Positions 1 through 24,696 of a stretch of DNA of 64,000 nucleotides are shown here, one piece after another (within the stretch, counting starts at the first letter, position 1; every line of letters starts with the position of its first letter). The notes beneath the pieces were generated by a model that worked only from the letters and a program-made list of their open reading frames with translations, ran no database searches and was not told the DNA's origin. The stretch covers positions 108,411 to 172,410 of the forward strand of contig JAHEIH010000006.1 in NCBI GenBank assembly GCA_024639455.1, read 5' to 3'. Origin of the DNA: Cellvibrionales bacterium. GTDB taxonomy: Bacteria > Pseudomonadota > Gammaproteobacteria > Pseudomonadales > JAHEIH01. Position numbers and translations under genes: made by a program.

Positions 1-457
1 CACCAATAATGGTGCGCACGTTAACCGATGCACCGCCGCCAGTGAAAATGCCGTGACGACCTTCGGGCAGCGAATAGTAGGTCGTTTCATCCGCCACGCG
101 CACATGTGCACAGGCAGCGATTTCCATGCCACCGCCGATGACCGCGCCGTGCATGGCCGCTACCATGGGCACGCCCTGAGACTGGAAGTTGGCAAATATA
201 CGGTGCCAGTTGTTAGAGTGCTTTACCACTTGGAAGGCGTTGCGCGCTTTAAGCTCAGCCAGATCGAGACCAGCGCAGAATTCAGTGCCATTGCCCGATA
301 GTACAATGACGCGAACCTCTTCAGGAATGTGGTTTAAGACGTAATCGATTTCATCGACTAAGGGGTCGTGAATGGCGTTCTTTTTTTCAGGACGGTTGAG
401 CTGAAGGTGGCCAATGCCATCTTCAACGGAAAATGTTACGAATTGAAAATCGATCAT
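1..457 (-). CDS. Enoyl-CoA hydratase/isomerase (crotonase) family protein, partial
   Basis: Reading the minus strand from the ATG at 457 gives about 152 residues with no stop; the gene runs off the left edge, so its C-terminal part is missing. Seen: an N-terminal NRPEKKNA block, the oxyanion-hole segment FCAGLDL, the GGGMEIA loop with the first catalytic Glu, and LPEGRHG with the second. Both acid/base glutamates of true hydratases are therefore present. The acyl-CoA substrate cannot be told from sequence. It is divergent from a MarR-type gene, and the start lies close to a perfect palindrome (491-515), so repression by that regulator is likely. The nearby protocatechuate genes make an aromatic or phenylpropanoid acyl-CoA plausible, but this is inference. 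Confidence 0.85.
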   Translation of the reverse strand, partial: MIDFQFVTFSVEDGIGHLQLNRPEKKNAIHDPLVDEIDYVLNHIPEEVRVIVLSGNGTEFCAGLDLAELKARNAFQVVKHSNNWHRIFANFQSQGVPMVAAMHGAVIGGGMEIAACAHVRVADETTYYSLPEGRHGIFTGGGASVNVRTIIG

Positions 458-490
458 ACAGACCTCTTAATATTTTGGGCTTCATTACAA

Positions 491-515
491 AAATTGTTTA
501 TGCTATAAACAATTT
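491..515. promoter_or_regulatory. Probable MarR operator, perfect 11-bp inverted repeat
   Basis: AAATTGTTTAT, a 3-bp spacer GCT, then ATAAACAATTT: two 11-bp arms that are exact reverse complements. It lies between the divergent crotonase start (457) and the MarR start (547), where such regulators usually bind to repress both genes. Binding by the adjacent MarR protein is inferred from position. Confidence 0.75.
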
Positions 516-546
516 ATTGATAAGCAATTTAAGGCAGCAACAACTT

Positions 547-987
547 ATGGTCAAGTCAAAAAGCATTAATATGGGGTTTTTAGACGACTCGCTCGGCTAT
601 CAATTGCGCCGTGCTCAGTTGGCTGTGTTTCATGATTTTGCTGAAAATTGCCGTAGCATTGGCACGAGTGCTGGGTTGTTTTCGATTGTCACCATTGTCT
701 ACAACAATCCTGGGCTCACTCAGTCAGCTATTGCCAAGGCACTCGGTATTGATCGTTCGGCGATGGTGGCGGCAATCGACAAATTAGAGGCGAAGGGATT
801 GATCGAGCGACGCAAGACCGAAAATGATCGCCGTTCCTATGCCTTGTTTGTCACCGGCCGGGGTAAAGACTGGTACCAGCAGGCCTTGACACAAGTGGAA
901 CAGCACGAAGCGGGGTTGTATATGGACCTTAGCGAAGAGCAGCGGCAGTTCTTAGTGGGCTTTTTGAGTAAGTTGGCTACTCGCTAG
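547..987 (+). CDS. MarR-family transcriptional regulator
   Basis: A 146-residue winged-helix repressor. Residues about 55-100 hold the DNA-binding part: the recognition-helix stretch TQSAIAKALGIDRSAM, followed by DKLEAKGLIERR and the wing DRRSYALFVT typical of MarR proteins. The open frame extends upstream to 433, but that extension would read through the palindromic operator at 491-515, so the ATG at 547 (or 571, MGFLDDS) is preferred. It is divergent from the crotonase gene and its 3' end overlaps the end of the convergent LysR gene by 11 bp. MarR repressors are usually released by an aromatic acid or acyl-CoA ligand; the ligand here is unknown. Confidence 0.85.
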   Translation: MVKSKSINMGFLDDSLGYQLRRAQLAVFHDFAENCRSIGTSAGLFSIVTIVYNNPGLTQSAIAKALGIDRSAMVAAIDKLEAKGLIERRKTENDRRSYALFVTGRGKDWYQQALTQVEQHEAGLYMDLSEEQRQFLVGFLSKLATR

Positions 988-2170
988 CGGCGTTTTGGCC
1001 AAGAAAATCGATAAAGCGTTGTTGCAGCGCGGTAGGCTGCCAGCCCTTGCGAAAACTCACCCCAATTTTACGGGTGGTGCCAGGCAATTGCAGCGGCAAC
1101 ACCGTTAACAAATTGGCCGCCACATCGTTTCCGACCTGTCGCGACGATAGAAGAGTGGCGCGATCGCTCACCATGAGAAGTTTTCTGACCGCCATAAAGG
1201 AGCCACACTCGATAATACGCTGGGGTACTTGCAAACCCGCGTCGAAGAACACTTGCTCAAATACTTGCCGCCCCGGCGTTTCGTTGTGGGGCGTAATCCA
1301 ATCGAAATCCACCAAATCCTCAACGCGAACCTGTTTGCGTGTGCATAAAGGATGTCCAGTGCGCACGACCACGCTCAGTTCATCATCGAACATGGCGCGT
1401 TGAACAATCGGCAGCCCGGATTTTTGTTCGCGCAGTGCGCCAATAATCATGTCAATGCGGCCGTGCATGAGTTCGTGCAATTGCGCCTCGTAGGGGCCGT
1501 CGTAGATCGATACATCGGCGGCGGGATAGTCGATCAGCAGATCGCTTACCGCATTCGGTGCCCAATCGCTGCGAGCCAGTGGCAAGCTGCCGATGGCGAG
1601 GCGACCGATGCTCTCACCGCGCGCTTGTTCCATGGCGTCGACCGCCTGTTGCAGTTCACTGTAAAACAACTCGATGTGCTGGGCGACGTACTTGGCCTGG
1701 CGGGTAGGTTGTGAGCCGTAGCTAGATCGGTAAAAGAATTCGGTATTACACAATTGCTCGAAGTCGGCGATGGCGCGGTGCACGGTGGGTTGACTGAGCT
1801 GTAACTGGTCGGCGGCGCGTTTGCTGCTTTCGGCACGCACGGTGTAGGAAAACGCTCGCAATAGAGTGGCCGTCACTGAGCGGCTGAAATTGTGCCGTTT
1901 GTCGATGGGGAGGGCGCTGGCAATTTTGTCTAGCAGGCCCAGCGCTCGCTCCACCCGCGCAAAAAATACTTCGCCCAAAGGGCTCGCCTGGGTGCCCCGG
2001 CGGGAGCGCTCGATGAGTTTGCAGGCAAGTTGCTGTTCTAGCTTTTTAATGCCTTGCGAAATGGCCGGCTGCGACAGGTACAGTTCCTCTGCCGCATGAT
2101 TGATGCTGTGTCCCTTCCACACTAAGTTGGTCGCGAGTAGGTGCCGGATATTCAAGGTTTCAACGTTCAT
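977..2170 (-). CDS. LysR-family regulator with two tandem HTH domains, next to the protocatechuate operon
   Basis: At 397 residues this is about 100 longer than a normal LysR protein. The extra length is a second LysR-type winged helix: HTH 1 lies at residues 5-64 (AAEELYLSQPAISQGIKKLE) and HTH 2 at about 98-157 (AADQLQLSQPTVHRAIADFE). The substrate-binding domain follows from about 187 (GRLAIGSLPLARS) to the end. It is divergent from ligK with about 110 bp between the starts, the usual geometry for a LysR activator of a catabolic operon, so it probably controls the 4,5-cleavage genes with a pathway intermediate as inducer (inference). No clear Shine-Dalgarno precedes the ATG at 2170. Confidence 0.85.
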   Translation of the reverse strand: MNVETLNIRHLLATNLVWKGHSINHAAEELYLSQPAISQGIKKLEQQLACKLIERSRRGTQASPLGEVFFARVERALGLLDKIASALPIDKRHNFSRSVTATLLRAFSYTVRAESSKRAADQLQLSQPTVHRAIADFEQLCNTEFFYRSSYGSQPTRQAKYVAQHIELFYSELQQAVDAMEQARGESIGRLAIGSLPLARSDWAPNAVSDLLIDYPAADVSIYDGPYEAQLHELMHGRIDMIIGALREQKSGLPIVQRAMFDDELSVVVRTGHPLCTRKQVRVEDLVDFDWITPHNETPGRQVFEQVFFDAGLQVPQRIIECGSFMAVRKLLMVSDRATLLSSRQVGNDVAANLLTVLPLQLPGTTRKIGVSFRKGWQPTALQQRFIDFLGQNAASE

Positions 2171-2279
2171 TTAGCCTGCAGGGTATAGAAAAAACTTATA
2201 TATATTAACGGATTTTGAACGGGATTTTACTGGCTGTCCAGCACATAATCCTAGCATCAATTTTTGTGAGGATTTAGTC
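2171..2279. promoter_or_regulatory. Divergent promoter region of the LysR gene and the lig operon
   Basis: This 109-bp gap separates the two divergent starts. It holds an AT-rich, nearly palindromic stretch at about 2195-2208 (TTATATATATTAA) that could carry LysR contacts or the regulator's own -10 element. GAGGA at about 2267-2271 is the ribosome binding site of ligK. I could not place a convincing -35/-10 pair for the lig operon, which fits an activator-dependent promoter. Confidence 0.5.
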
Positions 2280-2966
2280 ATGGGTGTTTGTGTTACCAAT
2301 ATCGCGCGCACGCCAGAGAGCGTCGTTGAAGGCTATCAAGGGGCCGAAGTGGCCACCATCCACGAAGCCCAGGGCCGCAAGGGCTTGTTGGCGTCTTATA
2401 TGAAGCCAATTTACACCGGTGTCAAAATTGCGGGTAATGCTATCACTGTCGAGGTGGCGCCAGGGGATAACTGGATGCTGCATGTGGCCGTTGAACAGTG
2501 CCAGCCAGGCGACATCTTGGTGGTATCTCCCTCGAGTCCCTGTGAAGACGGTTATTTTGGTGACCTGCTAGCGACCTCCTTGAAAGCGCGCGGCGTGCGC
2601 GGTTTGATTATGGATGCCGGAGTTCGCGACACTGCTACCTTGAAAGAAATGGGTTTCCCCGTTTGGTCTAAGACCGTATTTGCCCAAGGCTGTGTAAAAG
2701 AAACCGTGGGTAACGTCAATATTCCCATCGTCTGTGCAGGGCAGTTGGTCAACCCGGGGGACTTGATCGTGGCAGACGAAGACGGCGTGGTGTGTGTGCG
2801 TCGCCAAGAAGCAGAGAAAGTCTTAGAGACCGCTAACAAGCGTACCGCTAACGAAGAAGCCAAACGCGCCCGCTTTGAGGCAGGTGAGTTAGGCCTAGAT
2901 ATATACAACATGCGTGAGCGCCTCGCCGCCGAGGGCTTGGTCTACGTTGACCAAAAGGATTACTAA
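2280..2966 (+). CDS. ligK: 4-carboxy-4-hydroxy-2-oxoadipate aldolase (LigK/ProA type)
   Basis: Class II metal-dependent aldolase of the RraA-like fold, 228 residues, the usual family length. It performs the last step of the protocatechuate 4,5-cleavage pathway, splitting 4-carboxy-4-hydroxy-2-oxoadipate into pyruvate and oxaloacetate; family members also decarboxylate oxaloacetate. Seen: ATIHEAQGR near the N-terminus, [10 protein letters not shown], and [12 protein letters not shown] followed by IMDAGVRD, which carries the Arg-Asp pair that binds substrate and metal. It is the first gene of the operon, with a good ribosome binding site (GAGGA). Its stop codon abuts the start of ligU. Confidence 0.92.
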
Positions 2967-4051
2967 TGCAGCGCGCCATTCCATGCGCCGTTTTGCGCGG
3001 CGGTACGTCTAAGGGTCTGTACTTCAATGCCAGCGACTTGCCCGCTGACGAGACAATCCGCGAGCGGGTATTGCTTGCCGCGATGGGCTCACCCGATGAG
3101 CGCCAAATTGACGGTATGGGTGGTGCTCACCCGCTGACCAGTAAAGTGGCTATTGTGTCGCCATCGAGTCGAGCAGACGCCGATGTCGACTACTTATTTG
3201 TGCAGGTTGTGGTCGATAAAGCCGCCACGTCGACCGCGCAAAACTGTGGCAATATCCTCGCGGGTGTGGCGCCTTACGCCATCGAATCTGGTATGGTCGT
3301 CGCCAACGACGGCACGACCGATGTCCGTATTCATATGGTCAATACCGGAGCCATTGCCGTGGCACGGGTTGAAACGCCCAGTGGCCGCGTGAACTACGAC
3401 GGCGATGCTCGTATCGATGGTGTGCCTGGCACGTCAGCCCCTATCCCTACCGATTTTCTCAACATCGCCGGCTCTTCTTGCGGCGCACTGTTACCCACGG
3501 GTAACGCCGTCGATACAGTGCAAGGTGTGGAAGTGACCTGTGTCGATAACGGCATGCCGGTGGTGATTCTGAACGCCGCGGATTTCGGTCTATCTGGATC
3601 TGAGTCCCCCGCCGAGATGGAGGCCAACACCGAGTTGAAGGCGAGGGTAGAGGCTATTCGTTTAGACATCGGGCCGAAAATGTATTTGGGCGATGTCACG
3701 CTTAAAACTGTTCCCAAGATGTCGCTGGTGTCTCCGGCTGTTGCGGGTGGTTTGATTAACACCCGTACCTTTATTCCTCACCGTGTGCACGAAGCGATTG
3801 GTGTATTGGGGTCGGTCAGCGTGGCCACCGCTTGTGCCATTCCTGGCACTGTGGCGCAGCGCGTGATCGGTGAGGCATTGCCGGCGGGTGTGCACAGTCT
3901 TGAAGTTGAGCACCCCACGGGATTCTTTACCGTAGAGTTGGAATTTAGCCAATCTAACGATGGGCTCGCTATTGAGCGCGCCGCCTTGCTGCGCACCGCA
4001 CGCATGTTGATGCGCGGTGAAATCTATATTCCCGCCGAGGTCTGGTCTTGA
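2966..4051 (+). CDS. ligU: 4-oxalomesaconate tautomerase (PrpF/GalD/LigU family)
   Basis: A 361-residue PrpF-family isomerase with a two-domain diaminopimelate-epimerase-like fold. It interconverts the keto/enol or allylic isomers of 4-oxalomesaconate so that the hydratase LigJ can act. Seen: the N-terminal PCAVLRGGTSKGLYF block that is diagnostic for PrpF proteins, a GGAHPLTSKVAIV segment, and NCGNILAGVAPYAIE in the middle, typical of the active-site region. The start overlaps the last base of ligK. The equivalent enzyme is called GalD in Pseudomonas putida gallate catabolism; the lig name is used because the window also encodes LigA and LigB. Confidence 0.9.
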   Translation: MQRAIPCAVLRGGTSKGLYFNASDLPADETIRERVLLAAMGSPDERQIDGMGGAHPLTSKVAIVSPSSRADADVDYLFVQVVVDKAATSTAQNCGNILAGVAPYAIESGMVVANDGTTDVRIHMVNTGAIAVARVETPSGRVNYDGDARIDGVPGTSAPIPTDFLNIAGSSCGALLPTGNAVDTVQGVEVTCVDNGMPVVILNAADFGLSGSESPAEMEANTELKARVEAIRLDIGPKMYLGDVTLKTVPKMSLVSPAVAGGLINTRTFIPHRVHEAIGVLGSVSVATACAIPGTVAQRVIGEALPAGVHSLEVEHPTGFFTVELEFSQSNDGLAIERAALLRTARMLMRGEIYIPAEVWS

Positions 4052-4944
4052 GTCATGCCATCGCCACTATCGGTATTCTCGGCTTCGGGGAGGTCGGCTC
4101 ACGCTTGCTGGAAGATCTATTGGCCCGCAATGACAGCCACTTAGTGCTTTGGGATAAGCAGTTCACGACGGCTGACAGCCGTGCCAGCGAAAGTCTGAAC
4201 AATATCGATAGCGCCCACCGCGTCAGTGTCGCCACATCGGCATCGGACATGGCTGCAAAATGCGATCTGATCATTTCGTCGGTAACGGCGAGTCAGGCTT
4301 TGCTCGCTGCTGAAGAGGCGCTGCCTGGTATTAAAGCAGCGGCGTACTACATGGATGTCAATTCAGTGTCGCCCGAGACCAAACAAGCCATGGGTGCATT
4401 GATCAACCCTCGTGGAGGTCGTTTTGTTGAAGCGTCCATCATGTCGCCGATTGATCCAAGGCGTATTGCCTCACCGATCTTATTAGCTGGACCTTACGCT
4501 AAGGATTTTGCTCCCGTCATCAATGAGATAGGCTTTAGCGATGCAAGGGTTTGTTCGTCGGATTATGGCAAAGCGGCGGCGACCAAAATGTGTCGTAGCG
4601 TAATGATCAAAGGCATGGAGGCATTGGTGACCGAATCGATGCTGGCCGCGAAATACTATGGCGTGGAAGACGCAGTGTTGGGTTCGCTCAATAACTTATT
4701 TCCACGCCCCGACTGGCCAGAGCACGCCCGCTATTTAATTTCCCGCTCGATCGAGCACGGTGTGCGCCGCGCAGAAGAAATGCGCGAAGTCGCTAATACT
4801 GTGGCCGATTCAGGCCAAACCCCTTGGATGAGCAGCGCCTGTGTAGAACGCCAAGATTGGGCACCACAGTTTGCCGAGGCTCTGCAATACGAAGATTTGC
4901 ACGACATGCTGACCGCTATGCGTGCCCACATGGACGCCCACTAG
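4048..4944 (+). CDS. NAD(P)-dependent 6PGDH-like oxidoreductase with DUF1932 domain, role unassigned
   Basis: A 298-residue beta-hydroxyacid-dehydrogenase-like protein. The N-terminal Rossmann fold shows GFGEVG (Gly12, Gly14, Gly17); DVNSVSPETK at about 103-112 matches the substrate-binding motif; Lys180 in GKAAATKMCRS is in the place of the family's catalytic lysine. The C-terminal half is DUF1932-like. It starts at a TTG that overlaps the ligU stop (TTGA), so translation is coupled. No canonical step of the 4,5-cleavage pathway needs this enzyme. It may reduce or oxidise a hydroxy- or keto-acid side product, or serve a related substrate. The reaction cannot be told from sequence. Confidence 0.8.
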   Translation: MSHAIATIGILGFGEVGSRLLEDLLARNDSHLVLWDKQFTTADSRASESLNNIDSAHRVSVATSASDMAAKCDLIISSVTASQALLAAEEALPGIKAAAYYMDVNSVSPETKQAMGALINPRGGRFVEASIMSPIDPRRIASPILLAGPYAKDFAPVINEIGFSDARVCSSDYGKAAATKMCRSVMIKGMEALVTESMLAAKYYGVEDAVLGSLNNLFPRPDWPEHARYLISRSIEHGVRRAEEMREVANTVADSGQTPWMSSACVERQDWAPQFAEALQYEDLHDMLTAMRAHMDAH

Positions 4945-4961: not shown

Positions 4962-5999
4962 ATGTTAATTATTGATTGTCACGGCCACTACACCACGGCG
5001 CCTGAGCCACATCAGGTGTTCCGCGAAGCCCAAATCGCGGCATACAAAAGCGGTGGTGAGCTGCCCAATCCGCCGGTCATCAGCGATGACCAAATTCGCG
5101 AAAGTATCGAGCTAAACCAACTGCGCCTGCTCAATGAGCGCGGTGCAGATATGACCATCTTTTCACCCCGTGCCTCGACCATGGCGCACCACGTTGGCGA
5201 TGAAAGGGTTTCAAAACAATGGACGTCTGCCTGTAACGATCTCATCAAGCGCGTGATTGATCTTTACCCTGAAACATTTATCGGTGTGTGCCAGTTGCCC
5301 CAGTCGCCCGGTGTGCCGATCGAAAATTCGATTGCCGAGTTAGAACGCTGTGTTAACGAACTGGGCTTTGTGGGCTGTAATCTAAATCCCGATCCCTCGG
5401 GAGGCCACTGGACCAGCGCACCCCTGACTGACAAGAGTTGGTATCCCTTCTTCGAGAAGATGGTTGAGTTGGATGTACCCGCCATGATTCACGTATCGGG
5501 CTCGTGTAACGCCAACTTCCATGCCACTGGTGCGCACTACATTAACGCTGATACCACGGCATTCATGCAGTTCTTGCAGGGTAATTTATTCAAAGACTTC
5601 CCCGAGCTGCGTTTCATTATTCCCCACGGCGGCGGTGCGGTGCCTTACCACTGGGGTCGCTACCGCGGCTTGGCCGACATGCTGAAACAGCCACCGCTGG
5701 ATGAGCACGTCATGAAAAACGTCTTCTTTGATACCTGTGTTTACCACCAGCCCGGTATTGATTTGTTGTTCAATGTTATCGACATCGATAACATCTTATT
5801 TGGTTCGGAAATGGTTGGCGCGGTGCGTGGTATCGATCCGCAAACTGGCTTCTATTTTGACGACACCAAGCGTTACGTAGATAACCTCAACCTGAACGAA
5901 CAGCAACGCTACCAAGTGTTCGAGGGCAATGCGCGCCGCGTATACCCCCGTTTGGATGCACAGCTGACCGCGATGGGCAAACCAGGGATGACGTTTTAA
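4962..5999 (+). CDS. ligJ: 4-oxalomesaconate hydratase (LigJ, amidohydrolase family)
   Basis: A 345-residue amidohydrolase-fold enzyme that adds water to 4-oxalomesaconate to give 4-carboxy-4-hydroxy-2-oxoadipate. Seen: IIDCHGHYT at the N-terminus (metal-binding His7 and His9), DMTIFSPRAS, NLNPDPSGGHWTSAPLTD, the metal/active-site loop IPHGGGAVPYHWGR, and FGSEMVGAVRGIDPQTG near the C-terminus. These blocks agree closely with LigJ of Sphingobium SYK-6 as I remember it. The open frame extends upstream to 4824, but AAGGAG at 4951-4956 stands ahead of the ATG at 4962, which also gives the family length. Its stop overlaps the start of ligI (TAATG). Confidence 0.93.
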   Translation: MLIIDCHGHYTTAPEPHQVFREAQIAAYKSGGELPNPPVISDDQIRESIELNQLRLLNERGADMTIFSPRASTMAHHVGDERVSKQWTSACNDLIKRVIDLYPETFIGVCQLPQSPGVPIENSIAELERCVNELGFVGCNLNPDPSGGHWTSAPLTDKSWYPFFEKMVELDVPAMIHVSGSCNANFHATGAHYINADTTAFMQFLQGNLFKDFPELRFIIPHGGGAVPYHWGRYRGLADMLKQPPLDEHVMKNVFFDTCVYHQPGIDLLFNVIDIDNILFGSEMVGAVRGIDPQTGFYFDDTKRYVDNLNLNEQQRYQVFEGNARRVYPRLDAQLTAMGKPGMTF

Positions 6000-6889
6000 T
6001 GGCTGCTTTTAGATCCGACAGTGATTGGTTGCACTGGCATCAATCGCCCAGCAAACCGTCTTACGTTCCTCCGGCGGGCGCGGTGGATGCTCACTGCCAC
6101 GTGTTTGGCCCCGGCGATGACTTCCCCTTTGCCCCGGAGCGCAAATACACCCCTTGCGATGCGTCAAAGGACCAGTTGTGGGCGCTGCGCGACTACTTAG
6201 GCTTTAGCCGTAACGTGATCGTGCAGGCGACTTGCCACGGAGCTGATAACCGCGCGCTTGTAGACGCGCTGAATCACTCTAACGGTTTGGCGCGTGGCGT
6301 TGCGACTGTCAAAGCCAGTGTCACCGATAATGAGCTCCAAGCACTCCATGACGCCGGTGTACGCGGGGTACGTTTTAACTTTGTGAAACGTTTGGTCGAT
6401 GCCTTGCCGTTTGATTCGCTGCAAACCATTGCTGAGAAAATCCAAAAGTTCGGCTGGCATATCGTCATTTATTTCGAGGCGCAAGAGCTGCCTGAGCTAT
6501 ACGATTTTTTCACTGCCTTGCCGACCACTGTGGTGGTGGATCACATGGGTCGACCCGATGTAAGTAAGGATGTTGATGGTGAGGATTTTGGCTTATTTAT
6601 CAAGCTAATGCGAGAGAATCCTAACTTTTGGTCTAAAGTTAGTTGCCCCGAGCGTTTGTCGCTACAGGGACCGCCAAGCTACGCCGATGTGGTACCGTTT
6701 GCCCGTAAAATCGTTGAGCTCTTCCCCGATCGCGTGCTGTGGGGAACCGACTGGCCACATCCAAATATGAAGACGCACATGCCGGACGACGGCCACTTGG
6801 TGGATCTCATTCCCCAGATCGCGGTCACCGAAGAATTGCAACGCAAGTTGCTAGTAGACAACCCGATGGCTCTATACTGGGCCGACTGA
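5999..6889 (+). CDS. ligI: 2-pyrone-4,6-dicarboxylate lactonase (LigI)
   Basis: A 296-residue amidohydrolase-superfamily lactonase that hydrolyses 2-pyrone-4,6-dicarboxylate to 4-oxalomesaconate. Seen: VDAHCHVFGPGDDFPFAP with His32 and His34 at the first strand, YTPCDASKDQLWALRDYLGFSR after it, VVDHMGRPD mid-protein, and LWGTDWPHPNMK with the conserved Asp near the C-terminus. It begins one base inside the ligJ stop, so the two are translationally coupled. Together with LigC it forms the pyrone branch of the pathway, and both enzymes are present here. Confidence 0.93.
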   Translation: MAAFRSDSDWLHWHQSPSKPSYVPPAGAVDAHCHVFGPGDDFPFAPERKYTPCDASKDQLWALRDYLGFSRNVIVQATCHGADNRALVDALNHSNGLARGVATVKASVTDNELQALHDAGVRGVRFNFVKRLVDALPFDSLQTIAEKIQKFGWHIVIYFEAQELPELYDFFTALPTTVVVDHMGRPDVSKDVDGEDFGLFIKLMRENPNFWSKVSCPERLSLQGPPSYADVVPFARKIVELFPDRVLWGTDWPHPNMKTHMPDDGHLVDLIPQIAVTEELQRKLLVDNPMALYWAD

Positions 6890-6900
6890 GCAGGAGATAG

Positions 6901-7845
6901 ATGATGAAATTAGCAGTAGTAGGCCCTGGCGCCTTTGGTATCAAGCACCTGGATGGTCTGAAAAACATCGATGGCGTTGACGTCGTTGCTCTGGTTGGCC
7001 GCACCTTGGCAAAGACACAAGCGGTGGCGGATCAATACGGCATTCCTCGTGTGTGTGCCTCACTGGAAGAAGCGCTGGCGATGGATGACGTCGACGCTGT
7101 GATTTTGTGTACCCCAACGCAGCAGCACGCCTCGCAAGCGATTCAGTGCATGCAGGCTGGCAAGCACGTGCAAGTCGAGATTCCACTGGCTGATTCTTGG
7201 GCCGATTCTCTGGCGGTGGTTGACGCACAAAAAGCCACTGGCCAAGTTTGCATGGTGGGTCACACCCGTCGCTTTAACCCTTCCCACCAATATGTTCACA
7301 ACAAAATCGTGGCGGGTGAATTGAATATTCAACAAATGGATGTGCAGACCTACTTCTTCCGTCGCAAAAACATCAACGCCAAGGGCGAACCTCGTAGCTG
7401 GACCGACCACCTGTTGTGGCACCACGCGGCGCACACCGTTGATTTGTTTGCCTACCAAGCGGGCAGTCCAGTGGTGCAGTGCAACGCGGTTCAAGGCCCC
7501 ATTCACCCCGAGCTGGGTATCGCGATGGATATGTCGATTCAGTTAAAAGCCGCGAATGGGGCAATTTGTACGCTGTCATTGTCGTTTAACAACGACGGCC
7601 CACTGGGTACTTTCTTCCGCTATATCTGCGACAACGGCACTTATATTGCGCGTTACGATGATCTGGTAAACGGTAAAGAAGAGCCAATTGATGTATCTCA
7701 AGTCGATGTCTCGATGAATGGTATTGAATTGCAAGACCGTGAATTCGTGGCCGCGATTCGTGAAGGTCGCGAACCCAATTCATCGGTTGGCCAGGTACTG
7801 GCGTGTTATGAAACGTTAGCTAAGTTGGAAGAGCAACTCGGCTAG
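6901..7845 (+). CDS. ligC: 4-carboxy-2-hydroxymuconate-6-semialdehyde dehydrogenase (LigC, GFO/IDH/MocA family)
   Basis: A 314-residue NAD(P)-dependent oxidoreductase. It oxidises the hemiacetal form of the ring-cleavage product of LigAB to 2-pyrone-4,6-dicarboxylate. Seen: the Rossmann motif GPGAFG (residues 8-13), AVILCTPTQQHA, GKHVQVEIPLADS in place of the usual EKP motif, and HTRRFNPSHQYV with WHHAAHTVDLF in the C-terminal catalytic domain. The AGGAGATAG just upstream is the ribosome binding site; ATGs at 6901 and 6904 are equally possible starts. The length matches LigC of SYK-6. Confidence 0.92.
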   Translation: MMKLAVVGPGAFGIKHLDGLKNIDGVDVVALVGRTLAKTQAVADQYGIPRVCASLEEALAMDDVDAVILCTPTQQHASQAIQCMQAGKHVQVEIPLADSWADSLAVVDAQKATGQVCMVGHTRRFNPSHQYVHNKIVAGELNIQQMDVQTYFFRRKNINAKGEPRSWTDHLLWHHAAHTVDLFAYQAGSPVVQCNAVQGPIHPELGIAMDMSIQLKAANGAICTLSLSFNNDGPLGTFFRYICDNGTYIARYDDLVNGKEEPIDVSQVDVSMNGIELQDREFVAAIREGREPNSSVGQVLACYETLAKLEEQLG

Positions 7846-8855: not shown

Positions 8856-8881
8856 TTAACCCCTCCCTAGAGGAATTGACT

Positions 8882-9283
8882 ATGGTCTGGAAAACGCACG
8901 ACTACGACAACATTCCCGGCACTTATGTGTTTGATGGCAAGCAGAGCAGCCAATCCTACGAATTGAACAAATTGTTTTATTCGTTGAATGAAGCAGGCAA
9001 CCGCGAAGCCCTGTGGAATGATCCGGAAGCCTACATGGCTAACTTTAATCTCAGCGATGAGCAGCGCGATGCATTGCGTAACAACAACTTCCTTGAAGTG
9101 GTTAAAAAGGGCGGCAACATCTACTACTTGGCTAAAATGGCGATTCCCCGTGGTATCAGTGTGCAGCACGTGGGAGCACAGTTCCAAGATATTACAGTGG
9201 ATGATTTTAGACAAAAACTCGAAGACAATGCAGAAGGCTTTGTCGAGAAATTGAACAAGGTTGGAGGTTATTGGAATGGCTAA
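8882..9283 (+). CDS. ligA: Protocatechuate 4,5-dioxygenase alpha subunit (LigA)
   Basis: A small helical subunit of 133 residues that closes over the active site of LigB in the alpha2-beta2 extradiol dioxygenase. Seen: IPGTYVFDG near the N-terminus, LNKLFYSLNEAGNREAL, FNLSDEQRDAL, and a C-terminal VGGYWNG. AGAGGA at 8868-8873 sits 8 nt before the ATG at 8882; an in-frame TTG at 8876 is too close to that site to be the start. Its last 8 bases overlap ligB, so the two subunits are coupled. Confidence 0.92.
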   Translation: MVWKTHDYDNIPGTYVFDGKQSSQSYELNKLFYSLNEAGNREALWNDPEAYMANFNLSDEQRDALRNNNFLEVVKKGGNIYYLAKMAIPRGISVQHVGAQFQDITVDDFRQKLEDNAEGFVEKLNKVGGYWNG

Positions 9284-21221: not shown

Positions 21222-21245
21222 AAAGGGGGCTGAGCCCCCTTTTTT
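21222..21245. terminator. Bidirectional terminator between hemN and rne
   Basis: AAA-GGGGGC, loop TGA, GCCCCC, T tract. The T run overlaps the rne stop codon, so it can serve both convergent genes. Confidence 0.88.
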
Positions 21246-24222
21246 ATTCCGCGATGGCCGTTTCTGGCGCTTCACTTGTCTCGCGTGGTCCACGCGGATC
21301 GTTTGATGCGCGAGGTGGTTGCGGGCGTGATGGTGCAGGAACTTCCAGTGGTTTGGTAATTCGTGCAGCTAAATCAACAATTTCGGTATTAATGGTCAAT
21401 TCCGTCACTGGTGCCGGCTTGTCGCGGGGGTCATTGGCAGCGCGTAGGTTGTTGCGAACCACCACCACGTTTTCCACTGCGGGTGCTTTCTCTACGGTGG
21501 GCACTGCTTTAGCTACAGGTGCTTCTTCAGCCGCAGGTGCTTCTTCAACCACAGTTGCTTCTTCAACCACAGTTGCTTCTTCAACCATAGGTGCTTCTTC
21601 AGCCACAGGTGCTTCTTCAGCCACAGGTGCTTCTTCAGCCAAAGGTGCTTCTTCAACCATAGGCGCTTCTACAGCCACAGGTGTTTCTTCAGCCACAGGT
21701 GCTTCTTCAGCCACAGGTGCTTCTTCAGCCGCAGGTGCATCTTCAACCACAGTTGCTTCTTCAACTACAGGTGCTCCTTCAACTAAAGGTGCTTCTTCAA
21801 CCGCAGGTGCTTCTTCAGCTACAGGAGCTTCTTCGGTCTCTGCGGCTTCTACAACTGTTTCCGACTCTGTCGTTTGTTCCGCATCGTTGGCATCATCTGC
21901 TTTGCTGCGACGGCGTGAACGACGGCGACGCTTGGGTTTTTCGTCCTCGCCGTTGTCTTCGCTGGCGACAAGCTCAAGTTGCTCTGGTTGCTTAGCTGGT
22001 TCAGTGGTGGCAGCCGGCGCTTCTGGTGGTACGGCGTCGACAACTACCTCTGCCGTATCAGCCGCTTCAGCAGCATTTTTTTCAGCTGTGGCTTCTTCTT
22101 GCTCGTTTTCGCGTTGCTTGACGCTGCGTGAACCGCCGCGTGAACGCTCTTGCATTTTGCGAGGCGCCTTGTTACGTGGGCGACGGGCAGGTTTGTCAGC
22201 GCTTTCGCTATCTTCCTTAGCCGCTTCTTCATCGGTTACAACGTTACTGTCAACTAAGTTGTTATCAACGCTGTTCTCGTTTTCGTTGGTGCGGCCTCGG
22301 CGGGTGCGACGGCGGCGATTACGGCGCGGTTTGTTGTTACCTTCCTCATCGCTTTGTTCGTTGCGCTTTTCTTCCGACTTGGGCTTGTCTTGCTTGCGCT
22401 CTTGCTTGGCGCTGTCGTCGCGATCACGGCGACGATTGTTGCCGCGTTTGCGGCCATCGCGTTGCTTGGAGCGCCCTTTGTCTTTCTTCTTCTCTTCAGC
22501 CGTTTCCTCTTCAGTGCTACCAAACAGGGCACCAAAGATACGCGATAACAGACCTTTTTTCACCTCAGCAGGTTTGCTTTCTGCGGCGACAGGCTTTTCT
22601 TCGATCTGACGTGCCGGCGCGGGTGCCTTGGGAAGAACCGCAGCGACGGCGGCGACGGGGGCGACGATGGCTTCGTCTTCGATGGTCAGTGCGTCAACCA
22701 CATCCTCTGGATTAATTGTCTCGATGCGGAAGCTTTCTTGACGTTCGCTCACTAGCTCGTGGTCATCTCGCAAGCGCTCGATGCTGTAGTGAGGTGTTTC
22801 CATATTGACGTTGGGGATGATCAATAGACGTGTTTTGTGACGGGCTTCAACCTCGGCTAGAGCCGCACGTTTTTCGTTTAACAAGAAGGTAGCCACGTCG
22901 ACGGGAGCCAGTACACGTACTTCTGCACTGCGATCTTTGCTGGCTTCTTCTTCGATCAAGCGAAGCATCGCCAATGCCAATGACTTAACATCGCGGATGG
23001 TACCTTGGCCAGAACAGCGTGGGCAGGTGTGACCGCTAGTTTCACCCAAGGATGGGCGCAGGCGCTGACGGGACATTTCCAGCAGGCCAAAGCGAGAAAT
23101 ACGGCCTACTTGAACCCGCGCACGATCCATTTCTAGGGCTTCGCGGACCTTGTTTTCCACATCGCGTTGATGCTTGCTGCTAGACATGTCAATAAAATCG
23201 ATCACGACCAGGCCGCCCATGTCGCGCAAACGTAACTGGCGAGCAATCTCTTCAGCCGCTTCAATGTTGGTATTGAATGCGGTGTCTTCAATGTCTTTAC
23301 CACGAGTAGCGCGTGCCGAGTTGATATCAATAGACACCATGGCTTCGGTGGGGTCGATCACAATCGAACCACCCGAGGGCAATTTTACTTCGCGTTGAAA
23401 GGCTGTTTCTATCTGCGTTTCAATTTGGAAGCGGTTAAACAGCGGGGTTTTGTCTTCGTACAGTTTAATTTTATTGCGGTAATGGGGCATGACTTGTTCT
23501 ACAAAAGTCACTGCTTCTTCGTAGGCCTGAGGGCTGTCGATCAAAACTTGGTCGATGTCGCGCTTCAAGTAGTCGCGCACAGCACGAATAATAACGTTGC
23601 CTTCTTGGTAGATCAGGAAGGGGGCTGGTTTCTTGGCGTTGGCTTCGCTAATGGCGCGCCACAATTGGCTCAGATAGTCCAAGTCCCACTGTAGCTCTTC
23701 GCTGCTGCGGCCAATACCAGCGGTGCGAACAATGATGCCCATGCCATCTGGCACTTGCAGGTCGCGCATGGCTTCGCGTAGTTCGCTGCGGTCATCGCCC
23801 TCAATACGGCGAGAAATGCCGCCGGCGCGGGGATTGTTGGGCATCAATACCATGTATCGGCCAGGCAAGCTGATAAAGGTGGTCAGGGCTGCACCCTTGT
23901 TGCCACGTTCTTCTTTGTCCACTTGAACGATAACTTCTGTGCCTTCTTTGACTAAGTCTTTGACACTGTCGCCACCTGACTTAGTAGCCATGTATTCGCG
24001 GGCAATTTCTTTGAAGGGGAGGAAACCGTGACGCTCGGCGCCAAAGTCGACGAAGGCGGCTTCAAGGCTAGGTTCTACACGGGTAATTTTACCTTTGTAG
24101 ATGTTGGACTTTTTTTGAATCCGGGTGCGGTTTTCAATATCTAAGTCATACAGCCATTGGCCATCGACCATGGCAACACGCAACTCTTCAGGCTGAGTTG
24201 CGTTGATTAACATTCTCTTCAT
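21244..24222 (-). CDS. rne: Ribonuclease E
   Basis: A 992-residue endoribonuclease that forms the scaffold of the RNA degradosome at the inner membrane. Catalytic half: S1 domain at about 35-120, DNase I-like site with Asp299 (SIDINSAR) and Asp342 (VIDFIDM), and Zn-link Cys400/Cys403 (CPRCSGQG), each four residues before the E. coli position. The C-terminal half is disordered: Arg-rich blocks ([12 protein letters not shown]) for RNA binding, then about 18 copies of a six-residue acidic repeat of the EEAPVA type. The open frame starts upstream at 24249, but [10 protein letters not shown] from 24222 matches the conserved N-terminus. The long leader suggests autoregulation. Confidence 0.95.
21521..21844. 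repeat. 18-bp minisatellite inside rne, about 18 units
   Basis: Imperfect tandem units of the form GCTTCTTCAGCCACAGGT (plus strand) encode the Glu/Ala/Pro/Val-rich hexapeptide repeat of RNase E. Several neighbouring units are identical, which points to recent unit duplication. All changes keep the frame. Confidence 0.9.
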
Positions 24223-24696
24223 TATAGTCTCACAATTGGCGCGAGACATGGTGTGAAGGGTAGAGCGTTATCGCAATACCTCGCGTGTGCCATCTGGCAT
24301 GCGCGATTCATCGGCGCTGGGCGCTATAAGCTTGTCTGCTTCAGTCCGTACCACGATGCCCTGGTGTATGGGGCTGGCCGCGAAAACTAGCGGCGTGGGC
24401 CGTGAAACCCTTATCTATGGTGTGCTTCTTCCGTCAGTACTCGCTTGCAGCTCTCCGTGCAGCAAAGCCGACATGATTGTCAGTAGTAATTCTCTAACCT
24501 CGGCACCAATGCCGCGCGGTTAATATTATTCAGCTCGATCTCATTATCGGGCTGACACAATGTCATTGCTCGCAGTACACTATGCACTTTTACGCACTTG
24601 GCGATTGTTTCTCAATGGCGGTATCTGCGGTTGGAGAGGTCGCCTCGTCGCCTCGCTCTCACTTACGGCCGGCGATCAACTCTTTCCAACCCCTGC
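24223..24696 (-). promoter_or_regulatory. Long 5' leader of rne
   Basis: About 470 nt lie between the predicted start near 24690 and the rne ATG, with no reading frame. In E. coli a 361-nt rne leader folds into hairpins that RNase E itself recognises for feedback control. I see no sequence match to that element, only the same arrangement. The same stretch must also hold the rluC promoter on the plus strand. Confidence 0.5.

Follow-up and report, generated by a model that had tools for sequence, protein, structure and literature searches.

The gene at positions 977 to 2170 on the minus strand of the window (the entire 64,000-nucleotide stretch of DNA that was analyzed) encodes a LysR-type regulator in which two complete winged helices, both with a linker helix of their own, are followed by one effector-binding domain. 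Our reading, held at a probability of about two in three, is that this protein is a LigR-type activator of the divergent protocatechuate 4,5-cleavage operon that extends from position 2280 onward and that it has two functional DNA-binding heads per chain. The original prediction was right in seeing two heads and too narrow in implying a one-off architecture: the arrangement is that of a conserved subfamily that is widespread across gamma- and alphaproteobacteria and includes LigR-type regulators.

Few families of bacterial transcription factors are as abundant as the LysR regulators, and how effector binding shifts the tetramer on DNA has long been asked. Two heads per chain, in a conserved subfamily, provide a natural experiment on which DNA and oligomer contacts are important, and such a subfamily with LigR-type regulators in it would be notable to LysR specialists. 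Protocatechuate is a lignin-derived aromatic, and LigR is of interest for engineering lignin breakdown; the relatives described below widen the LigR group well beyond sphingomonads.

Two winged helices and one effector domain in the predicted protein

The following features were assigned to the regulator gene.

977-2170, minus strand: gene of the two-headed LysR-type regulator (LigR-like); 397 aa, ATG start, without internal stop
1985-2149, minus strand: head 1, winged helix, residues 8-62 (Pfam, HTH_1 scan, AlphaFold2, fold match)
2027-2071, minus strand: recognition helix of head 1, residues 34-48 (S38 Q39 here; T38 Q39 in most of the family)
1913-1981, minus strand: linker helix 1, residues 64-86, with R72
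1706-1870, minus strand: head 2, winged helix, residues 101-155 (HTH_1 scan, AlphaFold2, fold match)
1748-1792, minus strand: recognition helix of head 2, residues 127-141 (H131 R132 here; H or Y and then R in most of the family)
1622-1702, minus strand: linker helix 2, residues 157-183, with E172
983-1603, minus strand: effector-binding domain, residues 190-396 (Pfam, AlphaFold2, fold match)

Pfam placed HTH_1 on two stretches of the regulator, with a whole-protein score of 94.4 bits (cut-off, 26.6), and assigned residues 185 to 394 to LysR_substrate. A genome-wide scan scored the two HTH_1 domains at 56.2 bits (residues ~9 to 67) and 48.0 bits (~103 to 159) with the same cut-off, and the regulator was the only one of 13 proteins, with 14 domain matches between them, to carry two. 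An AlphaFold2 model, for which the input alignment had 39 rows (38 homologs plus the regulator), reached a mean pLDDT of 91.8 and a pTM of 0.86. The first unit comprised helices at residues 8 to 20, 23 to 30, and 34 to 48, strands at 53 to 56 and 59 to 62, and a helix at 64 to 86; the second repeated this order, with helices at 101 to 113, 116 to 123, and 127 to 141, strands at 146 to 149 and 152 to 155, and a helix at 157 to 183. Two complete winged helices ahead of a single effector domain had been read from the sequence originally, and Pfam, the model, and the fold matches agree with that reading. The second segment, on whose fold the original prediction had staked its case, was a winged helix in the predicted structure, from helix 101-113 to strand 152-155. 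The pTM only hints that the placement of head 1 relative to head 2 may be confident.

Modeled alone (pLDDT, 88.5), head 1 superposed on the DNA-binding domains of BenM and CbnR, including the DNA complexes 4ihs, 4iht, and 5xxp. The match to the BenM complex 4ihs had a Z score of 14.4 (2.2 Å over 88 residues), and that to CbnR in 5xxp had a Z score of 13.9 (2.3 Å over 86 residues). Full-length LysR chains, BenM and CbnR with their one head per chain among them, aligned with residues 98 to 397 of the regulator; one example was 3fxu_B (Z score, 21.6; 3.7 Å over 264 residues). Head 2 and the effector domain thus make up the standard LysR fold, and head 1 is therefore the added part. The protein has the N-terminal HTH_1 winged helix with linker helix and the C-terminal LysR_substrate domain of the LysR family. 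One head per chain and about 300 residues are usual for this family, a norm that lies outside the Pfam definition. With two HTH_1 domains and 397 aa, the regulator departs from the canonical single-headed form and was therefore classed as a variant of the family.

Distribution of two-headed relatives

Relatives were detected in at least 35 of 293 genomes of the order (E ≤ 1e-40) and in at least 35 of 398 genomes of the phylum (E ≤ 1e-35), tallies that are lower bounds because scoring was limited to the best 6 or 4 candidates in each genome. In two of the 35 phylum-level genomes (G465 and G468), the match was confined to head 2 plus the effector domain. On plasmids, 242 records matched, with coverage of the query reaching 80% or more in 138; Azospirillum, Agrobacterium, and Sphingobium were represented. 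Genome contigs scanned with the regulator sequence alone yielded no relatives; a profile of closer relatives yielded 266 matching stretches, and the best 80 of these loci (L060 to L139) came mostly from Vibrio, Marinomonas, Marinobacterium, and Amphritea, with some alphaproteobacteria. No full-length match was present in nine genomes of one family taken as Pseudomonadaceae, and no linkage of the regulator to viruses was found in viral contigs. Two HTH_1 stretches were assigned by Pfam to nine of nine relatives from distant branches, plasmids, and named loci. The two-headed set used below leaves out L002 to L004, which were single-headed matches, and the single-headed set leaves out L142 (a short open reading frame) and L152 and L153 (the regulator itself).

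Two-headed regulators beside protocatechuate 4,5-cleavage genes were common in marine gammaproteobacteria among L060 to L139. In a 2025 LigR paper, colocalization of ligR is described as mostly confined to Sphingomonadaceae under that paper's own criteria (PMC12710314). No LysR protein with two heads was described in the literature searched (PMC5882156 included), which lay outside subscription journals; records of this kind may exist there or in UniProt or Pfam architecture lists.

Conservation and origin of the two heads

Across 56 two-headed homologs, conservation was highest in head 1 (mean pairwise identity, 0.48) and lowest in linker helix 1 (0.24), with values of 0.41 for head 2 and 0.42 for the effector domain. 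Each recognition helix had its own signature. Positions 38 and 39 of head 1 were T in 50/56 and Q in 45/56, and positions 131 and 132 of head 2 were H or Y in 51/56 and R in 51/56; at the first of these recognition-helix positions, single-headed relatives (n = 59) had S in 45 cases and T in 12. Typical LysR head residues were kept in both heads (Q34/Q127, R55 and R/K148, and T63/T156). The arrangement has been kept across many proteobacteria that degrade protocatechuate, and this conservation of architecture therefore suggests that both heads matter for promoter reading.

The linker helices each carried a head-specific charge. R72 of linker helix 1 was present in all 56 aligned homologs, the equivalent residue of linker helix 2 was mostly A, and 9 of the 59 single-headed relatives had R. 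At position 172 in linker helix 2, E was found in 54/56 homologs and D in 2/56, the equivalent in linker helix 1 was mostly H, Y, or F, and E or D occurred in 12/59 single-headed relatives. These opposite charges hint that linker helices 1 and 2 pack together, and R72 and E172 could lie near each other if the helices pair antiparallel. The invariant charges would also suit an alternative in which DNA is read by a single head and the other, with its linker helix, is an assembly module that replaces the ordinary contacts of the LysR tetramer. We regard this alternative as unlikely, since both heads retain the typical LysR residues together with family-wide recognition-helix signatures, all of which a pure module could lose.

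In a tree of effector domains, all 29 two-headed proteins used (of 56) formed one group with a support value of 94, next to single-headed proteins of the PcaQ type (TIGR02424), regulators of pca genes and the nearest single-headed relatives of this protein. PcaQ was also the best NCBIfam match of the regulator; at 219.7 bits against the curated TIGR02424 cut-off of 303.8, identity with PcaQ was rejected. Members over the cut-off have one head and about 310 to 325 residues, and the regulator, unlike PcaQ, adjoins genes of the 4,5-cleavage branch. Head trees, the first of them with the same 29 proteins, grouped nearly all first heads together and likewise the second heads. In an approximately unbiased (AU) test on 88 columns, with 18 of the 56 proteins and with the long branches L143 and L148 also left out, heads as sisters had a p value of 0.84, and the alternatives with PcaQ heads had a p value of 0.90 each; the test thus rejected neither an internal tandem duplication nor a fusion with a related head.

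The two heads of one protein were identical at 0.313 of positions on average (0.283 here), as against 0.310 for heads taken from different proteins, and the split of the heads is therefore old. This result bears on the proposal that the regulator is an ordinary LysR protein whose N-terminal segment is spurious or recently duplicated and functionally meaningless. LysR-type regulators are numerous, and both gene fusions and wrong starts do occur, but an old split, retention of the architecture over many genera of alpha- and gammaproteobacteria, and the highest conservation being that of head 1 make this proposal extremely improbable.

The divergent protocatechuate operon

The regulator gene is adjacent to and divergent from the gene for a LigK-type aldolase, which is followed by further pathway genes.

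2280-2966, plus strand: 4-carboxy-4-hydroxy-2-oxoadipate aldolase (LigK/GalB), first gene of the operon (NF006731 and TIGR02798 over cut-off)
2966-4051, plus strand: 4-oxalomesaconate tautomerase (NF033377 over cut-off)
4048-4944, plus strand: 6-phosphogluconate-dehydrogenase-like protein with DUF1932, a frequent neighbor of the two-headed regulator
4962-5999, plus strand: amidohydrolase-type protein, probably 4-oxalomesaconate hydratase (LigJ), from its position and as a conserved neighbor; without NCBIfam match
5999-6889, plus strand: amidohydrolase, probably 2-pyrone-4,6-dicarboxylate hydrolase (LigI); NF042924 below cut-off, conserved neighbor
6901-7845, plus strand: Gfo/Idh-type oxidoreductase, probably LigC; IolG-type matches below cut-off, conserved neighbor
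8876-9283, plus strand: protocatechuate 4,5-dioxygenase alpha subunit-like protein (NF009918, 115.5 bits; cut-off, 161)

The neighboring operon had been taken for a protocatechuate operon, and these assignments bear this out and place it in the 4,5-cleavage type. Five of the pathway genes were then counted at ≥50% identity within up to 8 kb on each side of the best 80 of the 266 loci. At least one was near 78/80 loci, two or more were near 57/80, and four or more were near 54/80; at L067 and L120, none was found at this identity and distance. Some two-headed relatives lie elsewhere, for example, beside ABC transporter genes in Agrobacterium, as would be expected if the regulator controlled something else and its adjacency to the operon were incidental. 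The frequency of pathway genes in the close group and the position of the predicted operator within the shared intergenic region argue against this explanation, which we consider very improbable.

A candidate two-part operator

Upstreams of the two-headed genes had a common box, TAT-N11-ATA (TATTAGTTTTTGATATAG-like), which was found together with a second, weaker element in the intergenic region.

2184-2200, minus strand: predicted operator box A, TATAAGTTTTTTCTATA, TAT-N11-ATA, common to upstreams of two-headed genes
2212-2224, minus strand: element B, a candidate operator element, TCCCGTTCAAAAT, at a constant offset (-24 to -12, counted from where box A starts)

Box A lies 13 bp before the ATG of the regulator and 79 bp before that of the operon. 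It was the only match at ≤3 mismatches in the window (mean expected by chance, 0.39), and a search of the window for a second operator at this threshold found none. It was also the only exact match in the genome; one further match, with 2 mismatches, was found elsewhere (L206), and a reversed-pattern control gave 6 matches, versus 2 for the box itself. The box A matrix was trained on L060 to L139, and 10 of the 56 upstreams, which were near the training set, were left out. Among the 46 distant upstreams that remained, box A scored above the 99% null in 27, the regulator's own locus included, and above the 95% null in 29, with 17 below. Because box A abuts the regulator's own start, autoregulation is likely.

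Element B (consensus, about CTATTTCAATTT) lies upstream of box A at a constant distance. It was derived from 111 of 136 rows (about 67 effective), and its offset was the best of 51 in 26 held-out rows (z, 2.95), a test from which L015, L016, L019, L020, L032, and rows without a box A score of >9.5 were also dropped. The element is weaker than box A: its mean held-out score was about 0 bits, and several rows were without it.

Box A was present in 39 of 50 proteins with the H/Y-R signature in head 2 and in 1 of 6 without it; the rows are related, and the comparison therefore reflects one or two events and is no statistical proof. In L053, L057, L058, and L059, the recognition-helix signatures were changed in both heads and box A was absent; this branch probably has other targets.

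Relationship to LigR

By homology, gene order, and predicted operator, the regulator belongs with LigR. LigR of Novosphingobium aromaticivorans and Sphingobium SYK-6 is likened to it by the pathway controlled, by a divergent position beside ligK, and by a T-N11-A box near the regulator start. In PMC12710314 (with Kamimura 2010 as cited there), LigR is the activator of the protocatechuate 4,5-cleavage pathway. The likeness in architecture runs through the syntenic FldY. FldY of Sphingobium sp. TomTYG65, which is two-headed by Pfam, is 34.6% identical to the regulator over 97% and sits between ligK-U-I-type genes and 6-phosphogluconate-dehydrogenase-ligJ-A-B-C-type genes. The same paper describes a ligR gene arrangement that matches the one around FldY, and it names Vibrio fortis as a ligR carrier (PMC12710314). 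The V. fortis locus in our set (L063) is full-length and two-headed by its match. Synteny and these homologs, FldY and L063, indicate that LigR itself is probably two-headed; a second head goes unmentioned in the searched text of PMC12710314.

The footprint motif given there as common to the published LigR sites is TT-N-GC-N6-TTAT (PMC12710314). On the other strand this motif reads ATAA-N6-GC-N-AA, and in that form it matches box A of the family. The box at the present locus departs from it at 2 of 8 fixed positions (T for G and T for A), and the regulator further differs from LigR in its gammaproteobacterial host and its one-operon layout. The LigR operator is placed 50 to 85 bp upstream of the target transcription start site in the same text (PMC12710314). 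GalR of Pseudomonas putida, likewise a LysR activator, is encoded beside galB, and predicted LysR sites lie 62 to 97 bp upstream of galB (PMC9942251).

Proposed mode of action

For a LigR-type activator with two functional heads per chain, the following sequence of events is proposed. The regulator would occupy box A without ligand, while at least one further head would touch element B, some 25 bp closer to the operon, the small assembly spanning a compact site of 30 to 40 bp. Protocatechuate or gallate in the effector domain would then shift the complex toward the operon promoter and turn transcription on, as published for LigR.

LysR tetramers typically have footprints of 50 to 60 bp. The LigR footprint is about 30 bp, and that of SYK-6 LigR is cited as extending downstream with protocatechuate or gallate (both in PMC12710314). 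This shorter LigR footprint is in line with a smaller two-headed assembly, and it could equally be expected from an ordinary dimer; head 1 or head 2 could also serve solely in assembly. The original prediction had proposed that two heads per chain would change oligomer geometry and site spacing, a plausible interpretation for which the constant offset of element B from box A, the short LigR footprint, and the head-specific linker-helix residues provide indirect support. A specific form of it is possible, and we advance it tentatively: the linker helices would pack via R72 and E172, either within a chain or between two, and a dimer with four heads would read box A and element B as a rigid two-part operator of about 40 bp, two chains replacing the usual four and the heads having fixed, different sequence preferences.

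The consistent difference between the recognition helices of the two heads would also fit a regulator with two regulons, each head reading different promoters in place of one composite site, and published LigR does bind two promoters (PMC12710314). The published LigR sites nevertheless have one common motif (PMC12710314), and box A has a single exact match in the genome. Two separate regulons are, accordingly, quite improbable, and the activator with both heads acting at one operator is the reading that we retain.

Other genes in the window

The DUF1932/6-phosphogluconate-dehydrogenase-like gene (4048 to 4944, plus strand) had counterparts with similar annotations or matches beside two-headed regulators in Vibrio, Azospirillum, Sphingobium, and possibly Agrobacterium. 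Its product is a candidate for an extra step or a side reaction of the protocatechuate pathway. A MarR-type regulator gene (433 to 987, plus strand) is convergent with the LysR gene and overlaps its 3' end by 11 bp; its best NCBIfam match, below cut-off, was the Saro_0803 family. A long open reading frame at 21244 to 24249 (minus strand) was RNase E-like by eye and had a C-terminal run of short repeats.
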